Shown here: positions 26,473 through 32,052 of the stretch, in pieces
Position numbering within the stretch: position 1 is the first letter of the stretch
Layout of the letters: each line of letters begins with the position of its first letter
IMG/VR virus record: IMGVR_UViG_3300033148_005420
Location: 1-59,460 of that record
Reading direction: 5' to 3' (one strand)
Origin: a virus
Length of the DNA stretch: 59,460 nucleotides
Notes under the pieces: model-generated
Database searches by the model: none
The model's input: the letters and a program-made list of their open reading frames with translations, nothing else
What the model was told of the DNA's origin: nothing
Position numbers and translations under genes: made by a program

Positions 26473-26714
26473 AAACAGTAGCAGGAATAGTCACCTATGA
26501 GGTGCGGGTGCAGTGTCCAAACCCTGATTGCAAATGGGAGCTGAACCTGACGCAGATGCCTTACGATCCTGATGGTGATTATGCTCCTGATCATGATATC
26601 GGAGGGCCGGTGTTTGGAGGGGAAAATCAGCCGGCGCAATGGAGCGGGCTGGAGCTGGAGTACACCTGCTGTCGTTGCAAGCAGGAATTTATTGTTGATC
26701 GACTGGAGATTTGA
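26469..26714 (+). CDS. Zinc-ribbon protein
   Basis: An 81-aa protein with CPNPDCKWEL and YTCCRCKQEF, two cysteine pairs about 55 residues apart. GTG at 26469 has AGGAG upstream and overlaps the previous stop (GTGA), so I prefer it to an earlier ATG at 26427. It ends next to the methyltransferase start. Confidence 0.6.
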   Translation: MKTVAGIVTYEVRVQCPNPDCKWELNLTQMPYDPDGDYAPDHDIGGPVFGGENQPAQWSGLELEYTCCRCKQEFIVDRLEI

Positions 26715-26716
26715 AT

Positions 26717-27886
26717 GTGGCAAAGGCTTACTATAACGAGATAGATCAAGATTGCTGCGACTGGCTCAGTAATCTGATGGATGCCGGACTTATTGCGCCA
26801 GGCAAGATAGACAACAGGAGTATTGCCGATGTCAATCCAGATGACCTTACCGGGTTTCAGCGAGTGCATTTCTTCGCAGGCATTGCAGGCTGGGAACTCG
26901 CCTTGCAGCAAGCAGGGTGGCCAGCGGAGCGGCCAGTGTGGACGGGATCATGCCCATGTCAAAGTTTCTCTTCGGCAGGCAAAGGCGGTGGAATCAACGA
27001 CCACCGGCACTTGTGGCCAGAAATGTTCCGACTCATCGAATCCCGCCAACCAGAAACCGTATTTGGAGAGCAGGTTTCTGGCAAACGAGTCACCGGAAAG
27101 CTCTTTAGTTCGACAGCGTTCAGGCGACTTAACCAGGCGGCTGCAAAAGCGGCTAGAGGTCAAGACCAAGAGGCTTGGCTCGGGGTTGTACAATCTGACC
27201 TGGAAGGAGCGAATTACGCCCTGGGGAGCCTTACATTTCCGGCTTGTGGCATCGGTGCGCCAATGCTGTCTCAGCGGCTTTACTGGGTGGCCGAGGCCGA
27301 CAAGAACAGACGCAATCAAGACAGGGAGTATATCTCCACGGCCGGGGGCAATGGGATTATCGGAGACGGTACCGCTGACCAACTGGGCACGGCCCCGGCA
27401 CACTGGAAAAGGGCACTCGACCGGCAACCTGGCAAGGGCTCACGACAGGAAAAGCAGATTAGAGGATCAGATTTTCCTCGCAGCGTGGCACCGGCCGGTG
27501 GTGAGGGATCACCGAAACAGCAGGGGCGATGGGACAAATCCCAGGGACTTGCCGAGACAGGTGGCTCTGATCGGCCCGCTCCGACTGCTGGCTTCTGGGC
27601 GAATCCTGATTGGGTCTACTGCCAGGACGGTGCGCTTCGGCCAGCTCAACCCGGATATGAGCCGCTGGCTCATGGGATACCCGGAAAGCTGGAGCAAATG
27701 CGCACCGAATTACAAAAGTTGGCACCTGGTGCAGGAAATATTAAAGACCTGCTCCGGCAATGCAAAAAGATTTTACGGTCGGCTCGTAGCTGCCGTAATC
27801 AACAGCTGAAGGGGTACGGGAATGCTATTGTTACCACGCAGGCTGTGGCGTTTGTCGAGGCCTATCTTGAAGCTGAGGAAGAATGA
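26717..27886 (+). CDS. DNA cytosine-5 methyltransferase (Dcm family)
   Basis: A 389-aa enzyme that transfers methyl from S-adenosylmethionine to cytosine C5. Motif I is HFFAGIAGWELAL, motif IV with the catalytic cysteine is GSCPCQSFSSAG, motif VI is VFGEQV (in place of ENV), motif VIII is SQRLYWVAE and motif X is GYGNAIV. About 40 residues separate PGKLEQMR from the GYGNAIV motif, longer than I expect. Start GTG at 26717 fits GGAG eight bases upstream; TTG at 26711 is possible. No restriction partner is present, so it likely protects phage DNA. A second long frame overlaps it. Confidence 0.88.
   Translation: MAKAYYNEIDQDCCDWLSNLMDAGLIAPGKIDNRSIADVNPDDLTGFQRVHFFAGIAGWELALQQAGWPAERPVWTGSCPCQSFSSAGKGGGINDHRHLWPEMFRLIESRQPETVFGEQVSGKRVTGKLFSSTAFRRLNQAAAKAARGQDQEAWLGVVQSDLEGANYALGSLTFPACGIGAPMLSQRLYWVAEADKNRRNQDREYISTAGGNGIIGDGTADQLGTAPAHWKRALDRQPGKGSRQEKQIRGSDFPRSVAPAGGEGSPKQQGRWDKSQGLAETGGSDRPAPTAGFWANPDWVYCQDGALRPAQPGYEPLAHGIPGKLEQMRTELQKLAPGAGNIKDLLRQCKKILRSARSCRNQQLKGYGNAIVTTQAVAFVEAYLEAEEE
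26829..27809 (+). other. Long second reading frame inside the methyltransferase gene
   Basis: A 326-codon open frame in the +1 frame relative to the methyltransferase, from ATG 26829 with AGGAG eight bases upstream (26816-26820). Its translation contains LYNLTWKERITPWG and QLNPDMSRWLMGYPESW, patterns I recall from phage proteins annotated as hypothetical. They are exactly the +1 readings of LEGANYALG and of EPLAHGIPG. It may be a real dual-coded protein or a shadow of conserved codons. Confidence 0.4.
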
Positions 27887-29232: not shown

Positions 29233-29401
29233 GTTTCGCCCTCATTTTCACTTGGTAAACAGAGACTTCCGGCCCGTCAGCCGGAAATCTTCCGCATTTT
29301 TGACACATCGACCGGTGCATGTTTTGTTCGCACCATTCTGAGTTTCTTGGCTCTTCCATGTCTGCGCCGGTCGGGAATGCCTTGCATGGCCTAGCTGCCA
29401 T
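29216..29401 (-). CDS. Small cysteine-containing protein
   Basis: A 61-aa protein with four cysteines (RPCKAF, EWCEQ, SMCQKCGRF). It starts inside the end of the gene at 29391 (11-base overlap). A zinc site is possible; function unknown. Confidence 0.5.
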   Translation of the reverse strand: MAARPCKAFPTGADMEEPRNSEWCEQNMHRSMCQKCGRFPADGPEVSVYQVKMRAKRGNNS

Positions 29402-30500
29402 CTCTCACAGCCAGCCTTGCAACAATATCGCCCACAACAAAAGGCCTCTCGCTAACCAGGCTGTGGAAAGCGTCTCTGAGCTCTCCTGCCTGTTCTTTGG
29501 TGCCATCAATATCCGCAGATAGGTGGATGGTGTATTTGCCAGTTTTGGCCTCCTCTTGCCCATCTGTGGGAGCTGGCTCAGGATCAGGCGCTTCTTCCTG
29601 TCGCCGCTCCTCCGTAGCCGGTGGCGGATCGCCTTTCAGCTGACTAAGTTTTTCCGAGTAATACGCTCGGAATTCTGCCAAATCCTCTTTGTTTGGCAGC
29701 CCGTCGCTGATTTCTTGAGCATGTTTTTTCGCCCAGTTCTCCAGGTGGGCAAAGTGGCCTTTTTCGTCAACCTCAGCTTTGAGTTTGGACAGGGCTTCAG
29801 GATTCCTGATCTTGGCAGCGTTTTCCCGCCGCTCGGTTTCAAGGCGGTGCTCGGCTTCTCGGCTCTTGATTTCCGCCACCACCTCTCCGGTTGACTTCAC
29901 GATGAGAGTTTTTTTATCAGGGTAAAGGCCGCTGAATTTCGAGGCATTTACCAGGATAAGGTTTTCGTTGCACTCGGCTGCGAGATCTCCAACTTCTTTC
30001 TCGATTTTCTCCACCGCTGCGTTTACGGCGGTATTTAAGGTGTCGATAGTCCTCTTACCTTTGACCGACAGCTTTATCGGTGACAGGTCAGGGCTCAAGC
30101 AGTCGACTATATCAGGGTAAACCCCGTATAATCCCTTGACAAACTCGACAATACGCTGCTCACCAGTCTTGACCATGTCGGCCTTGACCGACTCCTTCTT
30201 TTCCTTGACCGCCTTGGTTGCGGTCAAGCGTGTTATCCTGATCGTACCAAGGAGCCCGTTGACCCCGTCAAGCAGTTGAGATACATCAGCATTACCCTTG
30301 ATTGCTGCGTCAAGGATTGCCTTAATCTCTTTTTCCGAGGCGGTACAGTCTTTGATAAACTGCTCTGCGGTGGCGAACTCCTGATCTGTTTCAGGGGTAA
30401 GCACCGCCCCATCGATCTTGGCCAGCCACTCTTTATTAATCTCGGTAAAGTTACTTTTCTGAACCCCGCCACTGATGGCGATAATTAACTCTTTCATCAA
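29391..30500 (-). CDS. Coiled-coil protein of the recombination operon
   Basis: A 369-aa charged protein, largely helical, overlapping recT by four bases. The first half contains two helical arrays (residues 40-120), and residues 200-300 are a long coiled coil (SKLKAEVDEKGHFAHLENW). It resembles proteins of unknown role that accompany RecT in phage operons, but I cannot name the family. Confidence 0.65.
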   Translation of the reverse strand: MMKELIIAISGGVQKSNFTEINKEWLAKIDGAVLTPETDQEFATAEQFIKDCTASEKEIKAILDAAIKGNADVSQLLDGVNGLLGTIRITRLTATKAVKEKKESVKADMVKTGEQRIVEFVKGLYGVYPDIVDCLSPDLSPIKLSVKGKRTIDTLNTAVNAAVEKIEKEVGDLAAECNENLILVNASKFSGLYPDKKTLIVKSTGEVVAEIKSREAEHRLETERRENAAKIRNPEALSKLKAEVDEKGHFAHLENWAKKHAQEISDGLPNKEDLAEFRAYYSEKLSQLKGDPPPATEERRQEEAPDPEPAPTDGQEEAKTGKYTIHLSADIDGTKEQAGELRDAFHSLVSERPFVVGDIVARLAVRDGS

Positions 30501-31297
30501 AAACCCTCCGATTTAAGACCAGCTTTTTCGCTGGTTTCTTTTTGACGTGCCGGGCAGCCTTTTCTTGATTGGCATTCGGTGCAAAAGGAAACAGATACTG
30601 ACTCGTTTGTTCCTGGGCAAACCACCCTCTCACCTGGCGCTTCCCCTTGTTTAGCTTGCGGCTTGTCGGGTTCAGGCTCGCCAAGAGCATCATCAAGGCT
30701 CGTTCTCGGCTTGTCAGTCTCTTCCAGCTCATCAGGAGTGTAAACCCCGGCGATAACATCCGGGCAGTATAATCTTGCCCATTTTTTAACGGCAAGGTAT
30801 GCGAGCTGTTGGGCCGGGTCAGATTTCCAAAGTGAGCTGTTCTGTACGGTCTGCTTGGAGATGTGACTCCAAGTCCCCCAGGTTATTTCAGACTCGCCTC
30901 TTACGATGGCCCCTGTCCTGCATTTCAAAGAGTTCCCCTCGCCTCCCCATTCATAGGTAAATCTTCCCCTGATCAGCCTCGAACTGAGGATGACGGCATG
31001 TACTAGCTGGGCCTCGTACCCAAGGGTTCCCTTAACTAAGTGGGTCTTTTGCGCAACCGTAAAGGGGGACATTCCCCATGCGGCAGCCTGGAGAGCTATG
31101 GCAAAGCAATCGCCCTTTGACCCGACAAGGTGAGCCGGTACTGTAACTTTTGCTTGGCACATTATGGCGGCTACTCTTTCGACTTGACTAATCACGTCCC
31201 CGTCCATCAAGTTGAGGACGGGGGGCCGATAATCATCGACCATTACAGGCGCAGGTACTGGGGCTTCGGTTTTTACTTCTGGTAGGTTTTCACTCAT
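30497..31297 (-). CDS. recT: RecT single-strand annealing protein
   Basis: A 266-aa recombinase. Residues about 70-200 carry RecT features: ALQAAAWGMSPFTVAQKTHL, GTLGYEAQLVHAVILSS, AYLAVKKWARLYCPDVIAG. It anneals ssDNA at homologous sites together with the exonuclease encoded next. The C terminus has an added cysteine group (VCPGTNES, CTECQSRKGCP, residues about 220-247), likely a zinc finger, that core RecT lacks. Confidence 0.88.
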   Translation of the reverse strand: MSENLPEVKTEAPVPAPVMVDDYRPPVLNLMDGDVISQVERVAAIMCQAKVTVPAHLVGSKGDCFAIALQAAAWGMSPFTVAQKTHLVKGTLGYEAQLVHAVILSSRLIRGRFTYEWGGEGNSLKCRTGAIVRGESEITWGTWSHISKQTVQNSSLWKSDPAQQLAYLAVKKWARLYCPDVIAGVYTPDELEETDKPRTSLDDALGEPEPDKPQAKQGEAPGERVVCPGTNESVSVSFCTECQSRKGCPARQKETSEKAGLKSEGF

Positions 31298-32052
31298 CGT
31301 ATTTCCTTCAATAATGCTTCAGTTTTAATTCTGGCCAACTGGATCAGCTCGGCCTCTTCGGTTTCTAGGCGAGCGGCCCTGGCCTTATGTTCTTCAACGA
31401 TCTGTTTCGCCATTGGCAGGCGGTCGGCAAGGTCGTTGTTCCACCGATTCATGTCTGTTTCGTATTTCACCCTCTCAATTGCGGTTGGGGCTGGCACTTT
31501 TAAGAGCATCTGGCCGTGTTCTGGGTGCCAGCTGAGAAAAAAGCTGTAAATGGTGTTGCAGATTATCTGCTGCTCGTCCACTTGTTTTTTGTATGTGGTC
31601 GGCAACTTCCAATCTTTTAAGTATTTCAAATGAGTTTTTCTCTCTGGGCATTTGATCTCCAGAGATACCAGGAGGCCTTTGAAGATGATTAGCCGGTCAA
31701 GGCTGGCGTGGAATCCTGGATACTCTCGGTTCCTGATCAGGCCGACTTCTATCGTTTCTAGGCCTGTGGCCCGCTCGAACCATGCAACGGCCTCCTTTTC
31801 CAGGCGGATACCCCTTGACATTGATGCGCTGGAAAAGGTTTCAACAGGTTCGCCGGTGTGTCGCTCTATAATCTTTCGATCCATCAGGGCGATTCTGGTC
31901 TTACCTGATCCACCGGCAAAGGCCGCTGATGCTTCACTGCTGCCGACAGTGTGCCGCTCTTTTAACCATTCCGGCGTTCCCTGGTCGCAGTCGTAAAAAC
32001 GTAGACCGGGAAATCTTTTGTAGGTTTTTGGGGTCACCGGCACAATGACCAC
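31294..32052 (-). CDS. YqaJ/lambda-type exonuclease
   Basis: A 252-aa nuclease. Motifs: QGTPEWLKERHTVGSSEAS at the start, RGIRLEKEAVAWFE (E ligand), GFHASLDRLI (D ligand), SLEIKCPE (ExK) and QVDEQQ near residue 160. Together they form the PD-(D/E)XK site of the YqaJ family. It would resect dsDNA 5' ends to feed RecT. GTG 32052 is the first possible start; GTG 32043 is an alternative. Confidence 0.88.
   Translation of the reverse strand: MVIVPVTPKTYKRFPGLRFYDCDQGTPEWLKERHTVGSSEASAAFAGGSGKTRIALMDRKIIERHTGEPVETFSSASMSRGIRLEKEAVAWFERATGLETIEVGLIRNREYPGFHASLDRLIIFKGLLVSLEIKCPERKTHLKYLKDWKLPTTYKKQVDEQQIICNTIYSFFLSWHPEHGQMLLKVPAPTAIERVKYETDMNRWNNDLADRLPMAKQIVEEHKARAARLETEEAELIQLARIKTEALLKEIR

Follow-up and report, generated by a model that had tools for sequence, protein, structure and literature searches.

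A C5-cytosine methyltransferase gene in a virus record of 59,460 bases, analysed over its full length and termed here the window, is overlapped almost completely by a second, +1 reading frame that is also open. Two possibilities had been put forward in a preliminary description of this DNA: that the second frame, like many annotated phage proteins, is a mere shadow of conserved methyltransferase motifs, or that it is common for a phage C5 methyltransferase gene to encode two proteins. The question raised by the locus is which of these applies and, if the second, what the other protein does.

The methyltransferase frame lacks motif IX

The methyltransferase frame, alpha, matches the family models PF00145 (E=9.7e-11) and phrog_363 (E=5.2e-65); the alpha family profile itself finds M.HhaI (1e-17), the match being confined to one stretch. 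The features of alpha are:

26717..27886, + strand: alpha, predicted C5-cytosine methyltransferase catalytic subunit, 389 aa; likely start GTG at 26717, with GGAG at 26705-26708
26867..26893, + strand: alpha motif I (HFFAGIAGW), its core invariant among relatives
26948..26971, + strand: alpha motif IV with the catalytic PCQ (SCPCQSFS)
27059..27076, + strand: alpha motif VI (VFGEQV)
27257..27289, + strand: alpha motif VIII (APMLSQRLYWV)
27812..27829, + strand: alpha motif X (GYGNAI), past the beta stop

Motifs I, IV (PCQ), VI, VIII and X are thus present in order, as they should be in a C5 methyltransferase; but alpha alone has neither motif IX nor a conserved recognition domain. Recombination genes lie nearby on the minus strand (window 29391-32052): a RecE-like family match at 29394-30500 and, upstream of it, RecT-like and exonuclease-like ORFs recognised by eye only.

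The second frame and its start signals

The preliminary description was accurate as to the second frame, beta: it is open for 326 codons from an ATG with AGGAG eight nucleotides upstream, and both of the peptides remarked upon, LTWKER and SRWLMGYPESW, are present in its translation.

26829..27809, + strand: beta, second ORF in the +1 frame relative to alpha, 326 aa; ATG 26829, stop codon 27807-27809
26816..26833, + strand: putative beta translation start region, AGGAG (26816-26820), 8-nt spacer and ATG (26829), inside the alpha box RSIADV

RSIxDV is a nearly invariant box of alpha that is not a catalytic motif, and it houses the Shine-Dalgarno sequence and ATG of beta. Codon usage in the box among 105 homologues differs sharply from that elsewhere in the same genes: arginine is AGG in 49% vs 8%, serine AGT in 53% vs 9%, and aspartate GAT in 92% vs 38%. 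GGAG is found within the box in 78 of the 105; genes without it mostly have a GAGG core, and many of the latter an alternative ATG four codons later. Judged by this bias, the RSIxDV codons are chosen to spell AGGAG...ATG, the putative beta start.

The beta frame might instead be reached by ribosomal frameshifting out of alpha, producing a fusion of motifs I-VIII, recognition region and motif IX with no start of its own. Such a fusion would give back the usual motif order, motif X excepted, and codon statistics downstream of motif VIII do not exclude it. But the conserved Shine-Dalgarno sequence and ATG, with their biased alpha codons, stand 15 (or 11) codons ahead of motif I, and already from motif IV, long before a shift would be needed, the +1 frame is both open and under constraint; we consider frameshifting very improbable, and proceed on the reading that beta has its own start.

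Motif IX resides in beta

The preliminary description held that both peptides were +1 readings of conserved methyltransferase motifs. This is so for LTWKER, which reads conserved alpha residues, but SRWLMGYPESW is itself methyltransferase motif IX and not a shadow of alpha.

27642..27692, + strand: putative beta motif IX (QLNPDMSRWLMGYPESW); weak profile alignment, LQG variants in relatives, in-chain equivalent in actinophages

The beta C-terminus of relatives has LNPAHSRWLMGLPPEW or LNPAHSRWLQGLP where motif IX belongs. Profile searches, with loci fetched by either frame and several bacterial classes included, gave alpha and beta ORFs in +1 overlap at 251 of 251 loci. Motif IX is found in beta at 215 or more of these by a strict pattern (the misses inspected, RWLQGLP among them, are near-variants), and in none of the 251 alpha ORFs. 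Profile alignment of beta with ordinary C5 methyltransferases puts its best local match exactly on motif IX of the latter (e.g. LSLRMAARIQGFPDEW), although this match is short and weak (E ~0.06). Better support for the proposed identity than this alignment comes from the sequences of certain actinophages, Gordonia Trax and Gudmit and Mycobacterium Phasih with its kin, in which a similar element (e.g. PAFPEWMMGWPAGW) immediately precedes motif X on the alpha chain.

The partition of motifs seen in the window recurs in Paenibacillus Jacopo, Lacticaseibacillus R9.2 and Mycobacterium XFactor, and, in a second, distant set, at 66 of the 79 loci that were classified. It is not the only one. In Gordonia GordTnk2 and at loci L282 and L348, alpha stops after motif VIII and the +1 ORF holds both IX and X; a recognition segment, GPDxxRA..SGGDDL, belongs to the +1 reading of Trax and the alpha reading of Gudmit. 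The frame that holds motifs IX and X varies among relatives from Bacillota, mycobacterial, gordonial and cyanobacterial phages. This shifting of motifs between frames, with the pair always complete, fits the prediction of a single two-chain enzyme. Of the GordTnk2 +1 ORF (L279:1749-2637), in which the recognition region and motifs IX and X all lie, the record annotates no more than a fragment (gp29).

These layouts bear on the possibility that beta is a separate protein with a role of its own, regulatory or anti-restriction for example, whose overlap with the methylase is incidental. No structure or assay links beta to alpha, and neither Pfam nor NCBIfam has a model for beta, so that such a role could be entertained. 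Against it, beta provides, at the right position in the gene, the motif IX that alpha is without, and alpha has no conserved recognition domain either; motif X too is in the +1 ORF where alpha ends after VIII (GordTnk2, L282, L348); in actinophages it is the alpha chain that has motif IX; and beta without alpha, sought among the loci selected by beta, was not found. We give an independent role little credence, and take beta to be a part of the methyltransferase.

The +1 frame is kept open and selected

The preliminary description had specified what would refute a coding role: frequent stops in the +1 frame of homologues whose methyltransferase is intact, together with no reduction of third-position variation. 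Stops were counted from motif I to IX in 84 genes (the window gene, 5 phage records and 78 viral-contig loci, picked mainly by alpha alignment) and compared with numbers obtained on permuting synonymous codons within each gene, which keeps protein and codon usage unchanged. The window gene has no +1 stop where permutation gives a mean of 4.7 (P ~0.003), and the length of its open +1 frame was reached in none of 300 permutations. Across the 84 genes there are 4 +1 stops for 328 expected, and 82 genes are free of them for 1.8 expected; in the +2 frame the corresponding stop counts are 1051 observed and 912 expected. As the sampled genes are related, per-gene probabilities were not multiplied. 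Two genes account for the +1 stops: L006, which reflects a landmark error, and N15, whose stop precedes a later beta start. A search of N15 gp58 DNA against E. coli genomes returned no match. The second, distant set of loci has no +1 stop between motifs IV and VIII (38 genes; 108.5 expected). Single-chain C5 methyltransferases of the bacteria represented among the 251 loci, with motif IX in frame, have 6-23 in +1.

Certain loci showed peculiarities. At L001, the nearest viral-contig relative, and as a point against the two-subunit reading, an amber stop (TAG; region 2490-2740) splits beta immediately ahead of motif IX; the piece with the motif remains open as a 52-aa ORF. A Pseudodesulfovibrio contig (L209:1880-3784) has two tandem, divergent methylase genes, each with a +1 beta ORF. 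Apparent decaying copies are seen at L061, L094 and L231, where alpha is interrupted and beta open, and at L247 in an Arsenophonus endosymbiont, where both frames are broken.

Selection was assessed in each frame by a codon-position test on 43 independent, non-overlapping gene pairs; an all-pairs version was also run. The alpha p3/p1 ratio is 3.2 at the alpha-only 5' end, 2.2 at the 3' end, 2.0 over motifs I-VIII, and 0.58 in the recognition region. In this last region, between motifs VIII and IX, the values for alpha positions are 0.323 (p1), 0.195 (p2) and 0.187 (p3); p1, the third position of beta, exceeds p3 in 40 of the 43 pairs and is below it in 2, and conservation is 76% in the beta reading vs 62% in that of alpha. 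Where alpha residues are unchanged, the rate of synonymous change depends on the region: about 0.31 for the alpha-only ends and likewise for motifs I-II, 0.11-0.14 between motifs IV and VIII, and 0.065 for the recognition region. There is no drop in alpha synonymous variation over the first ~40 residues of beta, which overlie alpha motifs I-II and, on this measure, look unconstrained. Because of these codon-position and synonymous-rate patterns we regard the overlap as dual-coding from about motif IV, and the recognition region as mainly beta.

Neither of the refuting outcomes was met with, alpha third positions being strongly reduced in variation within the overlap. The notion of a shadow, a +1 ORF conserved merely through alpha conservation and codon usage that avoids +1 stops, does describe the first part of beta, where synonymous variation is not reduced, and LTWKER and similar parts that read conserved alpha residues, but is otherwise scarcely tenable in the face of 4 stops vs 328 in shuffles that hold protein and codon usage constant, the stop-free second set, the many stops in single-chain enzymes, and, between motifs VIII and X, an alpha that is the less conserved and whose first positions (beta third) change fastest. 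The second frame is real, and it is most likely coding, its translation being inferred, without expression data. Of the two possibilities raised at the outset, the near-absence of +1 stops and the reduced third-position variation support, on sequence evidence, the second, namely two proteins as a common product of phage C5 methyltransferase genes.

Beta carries an array of shuffled modules

Between its hairpin and motif IX, beta consists of tandem modules of a GWxTP type.

27120..27266, + strand: beta helix and beta-hairpin core (SGDLTRRLQKRLEV...LYNLTWKERITPWGALHFRLVASVRQC); AlphaFold2 pLDDT block means 85-92 over most of it, same element in a relative
27285..27380, + strand: predicted beta recognition module 1 (GWPRPTRTDAIKTGSISPRPGAMGLSETVPLT); 75% identical to L198 module 4
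27381..27482, + strand: predicted beta recognition module 2 (NWARPRHTGKGHSTGNLARAHDRKSRLEDQIFLA); 50-59% identity with L096 and L100 modules
27483..27572, + strand: predicted beta recognition module 3 (AWHRPVVRDHRNSRGDGTNPRDLPRQVALI); 77% identical to L198 module 2

Modules number 1-6 per protein, with a median spacing of 33 residues. L198 is a Pseudomonas saxonica locus whose beta is 36% identical to that of the window over the N-terminal part and hairpin (52/145), and the order of the shared modules is reversed, window 1 and 3 matching L198 4 and 2. Clustering of 472 modules from 170 proteins gave 92 clusters in 137 distinct arrangements, with 29 pairs of module families found in both orders. 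None of the 137 distinct arrays repeats a module family; shuffled arrays gave 19.3 that do (minimum 10 in 2000). This pattern looks like exchange of specificity units, by analogy with the multi-domain enzymes of Bacillus phages. That modules are never repeated, and are reordered between phages, suggests a shuffled multi-specificity in which the target sites are inferred, not measured; that one module reads one site is likewise inference.

Structure prediction was less informative. The betas of the window and of L055, modelled alone by AlphaFold2, are confident only in the helix-hairpin and of low confidence elsewhere (mean pLDDT 59-61), and Foldseek found nothing in the PDB below E=0.001 with either model. 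The beta profile matched no PDB sequence, and Pfam and NCBIfam gave no significant match; GcvT and SspK, which appeared there as weak matches only, were disregarded as identities for beta. About 26 codons of the window (27074-27160), between alpha motifs VI and VII, are missing from relatives; they lengthen the beta helix that precedes the hairpin and resemble a second copy of it.

Discussion

We conclude, with high confidence, that this one gene specifies a split DNA cytosine-5 methyltransferase in full, both subunits included, with the reservation that beta translation and the assembly of the chains are inferred, there being no expression or complex data. The product of the +1 frame is most likely the part that recognises the DNA target. 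The best reading of the sequences, and one that had escaped the preliminary description, is that the second protein would supply motif IX and the target-recognition part of the same enzyme. Alpha, in frame 0, would serve for cofactor binding and catalysis through motifs I, IV, VI, VIII and X; beta, translated in +1 from its own Shine-Dalgarno sequence and ATG within alpha, would furnish the small-domain parts that alpha is missing, namely the helix-hairpin, the three recognition modules and motif IX; and the two chains would join into one enzyme. Between motifs VIII and X, alpha would be mostly filler, reading the beta recognition modules out of frame. The module array would set the sites methylated, and in the window phage the enzyme would probably be a solitary methylase that shields phage DNA from host restriction; both the multi-site specificity and the anti-restriction role are inferred.

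The arrangement was found here in hundreds of phages. It is probable, if less securely so than the conclusion for this gene, that these represent a large and widespread class of phage C5 methyltransferase made of a catalytic chain and an exchangeable, multi-module recognition chain in two overlapping frames of one gene, with modules shuffled between phages while both frames are kept open, and motifs IX and X moved between frames in different lineages. Among bacteria and phages, long overlapping genes on one strand whose two products are both needed are seldom found and difficult to demonstrate; this methylase family, with its hundreds of natural copies, allows the selection on each frame to be read apart from that on the other. 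If our reading is true, a class of phage "hypothetical proteins" is explained, genome annotation is losing half of a common enzyme (beta being missing from the standard cellular protein family libraries, Pfam and NCBIfam), and nature offers a split methylase whose recognition modules can be swapped. To clone or classify such methylases by the alpha ORF alone would yield the wrong specificity, or no activity should beta be required.

A general description of this arrangement in phages was not found in the literature searched, though coverage was partial and a published one is not excluded. In most single-genome records just one ORF of the pair is annotated. Both are annotated in several phage records, e.g. 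PhiXhv-28, PhiXhv-5, K1H ("Mte8-like protein") and Jacopo, and we found in the readable text of these no statement that the two form one enzyme. PHROG families 1008 and 31772 ("DNA methyltransferase") already include beta proteins, and match all 97 aligned beta relatives, without stating that these are overlapping partners of phrog_363.

Among characterized enzymes, M.EcoHK31I, which targets YGGCCR and requires both of its chains for methylation, has a small chain that reportedly lies in an alternate frame inside the large-chain gene, according to work of about 1995. This enzyme is a two-polypeptide C5 methyltransferase, the larger chain having motifs I-VIII and X and the smaller IX, with the predicted target-recognition domain placed in the large chain (PMC3404938). 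The window enzyme shows the same partition (I, IV, VI, VIII and X in alpha, IX in beta) and, if the reported layout is right, also the same nesting of the small-chain frame inside the gene for the large chain. It differs in having its target-recognition domain in the small-chain frame, in a beta that starts near the alpha 5' end, and in the lack of a recognised adjacent restriction gene. Since the large-chain recognition domain is not met with here, we regard it as a variant that works like M.EcoHK31I, not as a member of the same type. M.AquI, a split C5 methyltransferase specific for CYCGRG, divides its motifs into I-VIII on one chain and IX-X on its partner, as do the relatives GordTnk2, L282 and L348; the window alpha, however, retains motif X, and the two genes of the window overlap almost completely. 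Lastly, temperate Bacillus phages have multispecific C5 methyltransferases with several target-recognition domains in one polypeptide, a single enzyme guarding against many restriction systems (PMC12707154). Beta of the window type resembles these in being an array of different modules of ~33 residues, but the array is on a separate subunit in an overlapping frame, apart from the catalytic motifs.
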